NCBI GenBank assembly: GCA_902779765.1 | Contig: CACZCQ010000001.1 | Coordinates: forward strand, 124,001-188,000 | Length of the DNA: 64,000 nucleotides | Direction of reading: 5' to 3' | Origin: an uncultured Bacteroidia bacterium | GTDB lineage: Bacteria; Bacteroidota; Bacteroidia; Bacteroidales; UBA932 | Shown here: piece by piece, positions 3,660-3,768 of the stretch | Layout: every line of letters starts with the position of its first letter | How positions within the stretch are numbered: position 1 is the first letter of the stretch | Notes under the pieces: generated by a model | The model's input: the letters and a program-made list of their open reading frames with translations, nothing else | The model's database searches: none | What the model was told of the DNA's origin: nothing | Made by a program: the position numbers and the translations under genes

Positions 3660-3676
3660 AGCACCGAGCGTGCCAA
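3660..3676 (-). promoter_or_regulatory. Sigma-54 promoter of the tolC-hlyD-permease operon
   Basis: On the minus strand the sequence reads TTGGCACGCTCGGTGCT. The sigma-54 consensus is TTGGCACG-N4-TTGC(A/T), and this differs only at the first T of TTGC. The GG (-24) and GC (-12) elements have the required 10-bp spacing. Transcription would start near 3649, about 18 bp before the tolC-like ATG. An NtrC-type regulator is encoded immediately upstream. Confidence 0.8.
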
Positions 3677-3723
3677 ACCGCGTAATTGGTTGGCTAACAA
3701 TTTATTAAGTATTTGAGGGTGGG

Positions 3724-3768
3724 TGTAAAGTTGTAAAGGTCTTTACACTTTTCTGTAAAGGCTTTACA
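3724..3768. promoter_or_regulatory. Palindromic enhancer sites for the adjacent NtrC-type regulator
   Basis: Two palindromes stand side by side: TGTAAAGGTCTTTACA (3732-3747) and TGTAAAGGCTTTACA (3754-3768). An extra TGTAAAG half-site lies at 3724-3730. The palindrome centres are about 21.5 bp apart, or two helical turns. They lie about 77 and 98 bp upstream of the -12 element of the sigma-54 promoter, a typical enhancer distance. That the adjacent response regulator binds here is inferred from position and symmetry. Confidence 0.7.

Follow-up and report, generated by a model that had tools for sequence, protein, structure and literature searches.

A predicted sigma-54 circuit for export genes in an uncultured Bacteroidia bacterium and its counterparts in Bacteroidota

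The locus under study raises the question whether a two-component gene pair, a set of inverted repeats and a -24/-12 promoter, which stand side by side in the genome of an uncultured Bacteroidia bacterium, form a single regulatory circuit for the neighbouring export genes, and whether such a circuit is kept in other genomes. In the NtrC/ZraR/AtoC-type systems of Proteobacteria, a regulator of receiver-AAA+-Fis architecture is accompanied by a neighbouring kinase and a -24/-12 promoter, with tandem inverted repeats placed about 80-150 bp upstream and an IHF-type site between the enhancer and the promoter. An earlier note on the window (the whole stretch of 64,000 nucleotides analysed here) had proposed a complete sigma-54 circuit at this place, and all the parts that it named were found to be present, namely the NtrC-type regulator, the kinase, the tandem dyads, the -24/-12 site and the downstream TolC, HlyD, FtsX and ABC-ATPase genes. 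Judged from its sequence, the locus is very probably a self-contained sigma-54 circuit for export genes.

Genes of the locus

The genes are arranged on the minus strand in the order regulator (4652-6022), kinase (3774-4655), a 142-bp intergenic stretch, tolC (2261-3631), hlyD (989-2245) and an FtsX/MacB permease (2-979). The TolC-family outer-membrane channel (Pfam OEP, 2.2e-46) leads the predicted sigma-54 operon, and is followed by a HlyD/MacA-like periplasmic adaptor with a match to HlyD_3 and by the N-terminal part of a MacB/FtsX-type permease (MacB_PCD), which leaves the window. In the genome this permease is complete, with 779 aa (L044:5641-7980) and matches to both MacB_PCD and FtsX. 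Downstream of it come genes for a separate ABC ATPase and a further two FtsX permeases, and the row beyond consists of an ORF6N-domain gene (+), two permeases, a PAP2-peptidase M15 gene (+) and a final permease pair. Among the ten proteins scanned in this region (L043 and L044, genome C1:105607-124980), seven were long MacB/FtsX permeases, each with MacB_PCD and FtsX matches, as against a single ABC ATPase, so that one ATPase may serve several permeases, or the other permeases may be orphans. The ORF6N-domain gene (L043:14511-15131, plus strand) lies amid the exporter genes on the opposite strand and is possibly a mobile-element leftover. A 190-aa ORF (L043:14564-15136, minus strand) was considered as a gene of the exporter cluster and rejected, as it has no Pfam match and is most likely antisense to the ORF6N-domain gene. 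The PAP2-M15 gene (L043:8511-9884, plus strand), which encodes PAP2 and D-Ala-D-Ala dipeptidase (M15) domains, is divergent from the second dyad site described below and could share the regulator.

A TolC-type channel, a MacA/HlyD-type adaptor and a MacB_PCD/FtsX permease are also the components of MacAB-TolC, in which, however, the ATPase and the permease of MacB form one chain, whereas here the ATPase is a separate protein of 226 aa and seven long permeases share one gene neighbourhood. The adaptor resembles DarC of the DarBCDE-type darobactin exporter (NCBIfam), but at 209 bits it is far below the cut-off of 450, and the partial permease, used as the query, reached 20 bits of the 700 set as cut-off for DarB.

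With regard to the regulator, matches to PF00072, PF00158 (232 bits), PF25601 and PF02954 define a receiver, a sigma-54 AAA+ domain and a Fis-type HTH, the last helix of which reads SRPTLY in the translation, and the NCBIfam models of AtoC and ZraR match below cut-off. Its AAA+ loop is GAFTDA, one residue off GAFTGA, the sigma-54-contacting loop; relatives mostly display G[AS]FTDA, with GSFTGA in L191 and GAFTGA in L206. The genome has one RpoN gene, located elsewhere, with the AID, CBD and DBD domains all present (Pfam), and three strong sigma-54 activator domains (above 230 bits), that of the locus regulator being one of them. A further activator lies in the window at 62007-63311 on the minus strand, and combines Sigma54_activat (229 bits) with HTH_8 and no receiver; a small predicted lipoprotein gene comes after it on the same strand, and a ClpA/B-like gene is found farther downstream. 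The third strong activator (L045:9278-10453, plus strand) has a receiver and an AAA+ domain whose loop is GSFTSA; as no Fis-type HTH was matched, it may act without DNA binding.

The histidine kinase (293 aa) has a HATPase_c domain (9.1e-21) and, from alignment with 13 relatives, His89 as its phospho-acceptor, and the nearest NCBIfam model is AtoS, with a score below cut-off. Hydropathy predicts one N-terminal membrane segment (8-26) and no extracytoplasmic domain, which means that the signal must come from the membrane interior, the cytoplasm or a partner. In a simple hydropathy scan of the kinases at 110 loci, with start codons guessed, the longer relatives had one segment, or two that are at most 12 residues apart, two close segments being seen in many distant relatives (e.g. 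L202, L207 and L214). The exception was L219, with two segments 64 residues apart, and at some loci no segment was found.

Promoter, dyads and IHF-like box

The sigma-54-type -24/-12 promoter, TGGCACGCTCGGTGCT (3660..3675, minus strand), agrees with the earlier description of a near-perfect site with one mismatch, 18 bp above the expected leader of tolC, which was confirmed on the minus strand at 3675-3660. It differs from TGGCACG-N4-TTGCW by a single mismatch, the gap from GG to GC is the usual 10 bp, and both its place and its spacing are kept in relatives. With the second G taken as -24, the predicted +1 is 3649 and the leader to the tolC ATG (3631) is 18 nt. A -24/-12 match alone is not above chance, because the genome contains 210 sites with at most two mismatches compared with 330 for the reversed control; sites with one mismatch number 10. 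What exceeds chance is the dyad together with TTTGGCAYG at fixed spacing, which was detected in 13 of 199 family genomes, with 0 for the control in the rows listed, and which occurs twice in the source genome. The kinase is present in 12 of these 13 genomes, the exception being G185, listed at 82% completeness. Although the TG at -12 was not used for selection, 28 of 31 distinct promoters have the T and 25 have the G; the base after this TG was T in 18 and C in 8 of them, and the lineage prefers TGT over the textbook TGC at -12.

Two candidate enhancer dyads were identified upstream, the inner TGTAAAGGTCTTTACA (3732..3747, centre about -90), whose distance class is common to relatives, and the outer TGTAAAGGCTTTACA (3754..3768, centre about -112). 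They fall inside the range of 80-150 bp upstream that is typical of NtrC-type enhancers. Both are exact inverted repeats, as the earlier note had seen, while its distances of 77 and 98 bp were a few bases off, the near ends being 56 and 78 bp from TGG. Likewise, the kinase operon does end just past the palindromes, the stop codon (3774-3776) lying 5 bp, rather than 6 bp, beyond the outer dyad. An extra half-site, TGTAAAG, was read from the sequence at 3724..3730, and single half-sites also appear in relatives. In the genome of 2.48 Mb the exact dyad (1-2 bp spacer) occurs at three places, all of which stand at exporter genes of this cluster; the reversed-pattern control gave 0, and the chance expectation, for the base composition of four genome stretches, is ~0.01 per 2.48 Mb. 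The search for the dyad at other sigma-54 promoters, which had been proposed as a check, was positive in this genome and in relatives.

The third exact dyad (C1:110420-110435) is 17 kb away, upstream of the last FtsX-FtsX pair, and 77 bp from TGGCACGGCAAGTGTT, a -24/-12-like site with two mismatches to the consensus, including GT for GC at -12. At each of the two dyad groups a TTTGGCACG site stands at a corresponding distance (56 and 78 bp at tolC, 77 bp at the second locus). The 77 bp indicate that the distal position is used at the second locus, where the proximal position holds only an imperfect copy of the dyad.

An IHF-consensus-like box (3683..3695, minus strand) ends 7 bp before the TGG of -24, with two mismatches to WATCAANNNNTTR, which we take to be the IHF consensus. 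Among 42 related promoters, preselected for the -12 TG and a dyad in the distance classes, a box with a TTR end 7 bp before TGG was present in 30 at no more than two mismatches, compared with 0-6 at other offsets, and exact matches to the consensus at promoters were eleven against 0.14 expected from shuffles. The second promoter in the genome also has an IHF-like box with two mismatches, so this element is weak in the present genome at both promoters. A box at the same offset was observed in the Bacteroides loci L200 and L222, with one mismatch, and in L224 of B. fragilis, with two, and was absent at that offset from L215, L225 and L226. The genome was found to contain one gene of the HU/IHF family.

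The arrangement in relatives

In the family set of 199 genomes, the dyad pattern with a 0-3 bp spacer was detected in 41 genomes, compared with 6 for the reversed control, and its 65 places represent 63 distinct contexts. The nearest relevant downstream gene was TolC for 26 of these, FtsX for 16, ABC for 3, regulator for 5 and none for 13, so that 50 of the 63 distinct dyads, several of which share one promoter, precede tolC, FtsX, ABC-ATPase or regulator genes. Kinase relatives at E<=1e-30 were recorded in 80 of the 199 genomes. When a close kinase relative was defined by E<=1e-60, a cut-off chosen by ourselves, the dyad was present in 31 of 46 genomes with such a relative and in 10 of 153 without (Fisher p about 1e-16), and 15 of the 46 kinase-bearing genomes had no exact dyad. 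Close orthologues display the same dyad and TTTTGGCACG downstream of the kinase, and some kinase orthologues, such as those of L050, L053, L060 and L064, have no adjacent exporter.

A TGGCAY site was found within 110 bp of 40 of the 63 dyads, two of these matches being 15-16 bp from dyads at regulator gene starts, and 23 dyads had none at this range. The 43 dyad-site distances fell at 52-58 bp (23), 67 bp (3), 74-79 bp (11) and elsewhere (6), in classes that were set after inspection of the distances. The clusters near 56, 67 and 77 bp are about one or two helical turns apart, as would be expected if the regulator, once bound, has to lie on one and the same face of the helix. The Rayleigh value for these distances is inflated by related sequences and paired dyads and serves as a description.

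Not all dyads are placed in this manner. For at least seven FtsX-linked dyads the matched gene starts no more than about 21 bp away, a position in which one would not expect an enhancer to serve the sigma-54 promoter of the gene itself. Those of L133, L134, L137, L120 and L121 are ~21 bp or less from FtsX starts and have no -24/-12 site; start-proximal dyads of this sort perhaps serve repression, or act as enhancers for another promoter. In L051, L052, L060, L129 and L141 the dyads lie directly before the regulator gene, a placement that suggests autoregulation in these five relatives, and no exact dyad precedes the regulator gene in the source genome. A dyad with the TTTTGGCACG site also precedes a non-exporter gene in L087 (1501-1517; protein start MKKIKDIYAQWRAKAQ), which is a possible extra member of the regulon.

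The type of dyad was compared with the recognition helix at 77 loci with a readable regulator, among the matches listed. Within these matches, regulators with SRPT[LF]Y were accompanied by TGTAAAG dyads in 16 of 36 cases and never by TGTCTAA, those with [ST]RQTLY by TGTCTAA in 17 of 32 and never by TGTAAAG, and those with TR[FY]ALY by TGTGCGG in 2 of 3, this last type also appearing once, with one mismatch, in the Q class. The two control patterns gave one match each. No dyad was found for TRPTLY regulators (0 of 2 among the matches listed), and distant Q-type regulators had TGTCAAA or TGTAAAA dyads. On a tree of the 77 regulators, 35 of them labelled with a dyad type and that of the window not among them, the three dyad types require 2 changes, the minimum, and are clade-specific. 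The association is one co-change plus one outgroup type rather than many independent ones. A strict helix-to-dyad code is weakened by the clade-specific types, the dyadless TRPTLY regulators and the other dyads of distant Q-type regulators. The association fits the regulator as the dyad-binding protein, the residue code itself being unproven.

In the named genomes outside the family, at least 80 loci with a related kinase were recorded, and in 58 of 80 among the matches listed one or more homologues of TolC, HlyD, FtsX or ABC are encoded close by; among the matches listed from Bacteroides and groups farther off, these genes are mostly divergent from the regulator. A motif-blind search of the 80 loci among the matches listed for 7-bp inverted repeats before TGGCAY-N6-TG returned 47 rows, a figure in which nested repeats appear repeatedly, compared with 1.8 for shuffled sequences. 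Of the 80 loci among the matches listed, 19 had a dyad at 53-57 bp, which was of the TGTAAAG type in 11, TGTCTAA in 7 and TGTGCGG in 1. In Bacteroides and Phocaeicola the spacing is retained and the dyad is TGTCTAATNATTAGACA. A looser blind search of 39 loci, with one mismatch allowed and run without a shuffled control, placed a dyad near a sigma-54-like site in 6 (L178, L216, L221, L232, L234 and L238), and at these looser settings the spacing reappeared in Draconibacterium (52 and 75 bp), Gaoshiqia (53) and Sunxiuqinia (75), the distance in Echinicola being 87 bp. The circuit of the earlier note is well supported by these sequence comparisons, and is one case of a Bacteroidota arrangement that is widespread and has a predicted enhancer, a spacing rule and a second target.

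The remark in the earlier note that sigma-54 control of such an operon by an adjacent two-component system is not often described for Bacteroidota needs amending in view of the 58 loci with exporter homologues, and because the link between sigma-54 and FtsX has already been predicted (PMC12316311). In the accessible part of that paper (PLoS One 2025), COG0577 FtsX-like ABC permeases are enriched in a sigma-54 regulon predicted by promoter matrices in Bacteroidia, the link is presented as the first evidence of its kind, and no enhancer, cognate regulator, TolC/HlyD partner, spacing rule or IHF-like box is named for these genes. In the open-licence full-text literature no named regulator or enhancer for sigma-54 FtsX genes was found, and the accessible part of PMC10434189 holds nothing on this circuit.

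Mechanism, alternatives and meaning

What is established is that the parts are present, that their geometry is fixed, that they recur in relatives and that kinase and dyad occur together. As a mechanism, we propose that the kinase would phosphorylate the adjacent NtrC-type regulator, which would bind the tandem TGTAAAG-N-CTTTACA dyads at about -90 and -112, and that a DNA bend at the IHF-like box upstream of -24 may aid looping to RNA polymerase-sigma54 at 3660-3675. The activated regulator would switch on tolC-hlyD-FtsX-ABC-FtsX-FtsX, and the second dyad and -24/-12 site 17 kb off would drive the further FtsX-FtsX pair. The pump would export, or defend against, an envelope-active compound.

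Three other readings were weighed against this one. The dyads might be operators of another protein, such as a repressor or an unlinked regulator, with the NtrC-type regulator acting elsewhere; ten of the 41 dyad-bearing genomes have no close kinase (E<=1e-60), some of the genomes being incomplete, and some dyads touch gene starts in the manner of repressor operators. This is nevertheless unlikely, given the co-occurrence of kinase and dyad (31/46 vs 10/153), the dyads before the regulator gene itself in five family genomes, the quantised spacing to -24, and the variation of dyad type with the recognition helix across the 77 regulator loci among the matches listed. We give very little credence to the dyads being RNA hairpins, that is, weak terminators of the kinase operon or leader structures. 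The dyad stretch does fold as RNA (-15.2 kcal/mol, z -5.3 for the minus strand; -16.3, z -3.5 for the plus strand), and in the relative L049 a hairpin (-21.3, z -2.7) is followed by a U run when read in the same sense as the kinase operon, but any inverted repeat folds so, and no U-run exists in the minus direction at this locus. Moreover, the dyads precede the predicted start, are found again ahead of FtsX, ABC and regulator genes, keep their helical-turn spacing to -24 and are accompanied by single half-sites.

Equally improbable is transcription of tolC from a housekeeping promoter of the Bacteroidota type, with the -24/-12 match a coincidence, even though sigma-54-like sites alone are no commoner than their reversed control (210 vs 330). 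The TAnnTTTG promoter, which the earlier note had named as a finding that would speak against its reading, was not enriched at the right spacing (2 of 31 related promoters at no more than one mismatch, against 2.58 expected from shuffles) and is unsupported at tolC-like genes, while the TGG and the unselected -12 TG are held at fixed spacing and the IHF-like box at a fixed offset.

The preferred sigma-54 circuit has in common with the NtrC/ZraR/AtoC-type systems the regulator architecture, the adjacent kinase, the tandem repeats, the -24/-12 site and, as a putative IHF site, the IHF-like box. It differs in its FtsX/MacB-type exporter targets, the tight quantised spacing, the IHF-like box 7 bp before TGG, the frequent TGT at -12, the GAFTDA loop and a kinase without an extracytoplasmic sensor. 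In the Bce-type modules of Firmicutes, FtsX-superfamily transporter genes also stand beside a kinase without an extracytoplasmic sensor; that kinase is small, with two membrane segments and a very short loop, and works with an OmpR-type regulator. FtsX-type genes and a sensor-less kinase are thus shared with the Bce modules, whereas the present locus has an NtrC/sigma-54 output instead of an OmpR-type one, one predicted membrane segment instead of two, and TolC and HlyD partners. By analogy with the Bce modules, the neighbouring FtsX permeases are the obvious candidate for a signal partner, which is speculation. A broader and rather doubtful extension would be a Bacteroidota-wide family in which sensor-less kinases are wired to FtsX/MacB-type exporters because the exporters sense, as a Bce-like flux-sensing detoxification module with sigma-54 output, whose spacing was kept while the dyad was re-tuned with the recognition helix.

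The sensor-less kinases beside large FtsX permeases raise the question by what route they perceive their signal. With dyad types that differ between recognition helices, a possible switch in DNA specificity lends itself to testing by residue swaps, and the same spacing with a different dyad in Bacteroides and Phocaeicola makes the arrangement testable in genetically tractable gut species. The role of sigma-54 in Bacteroidota is little known, and here a concrete, conserved regulon is predicted, in which a regulator and its probable enhancer sequence come with a rule for the spacing, an IHF-like accessory box and a set of exporter targets.
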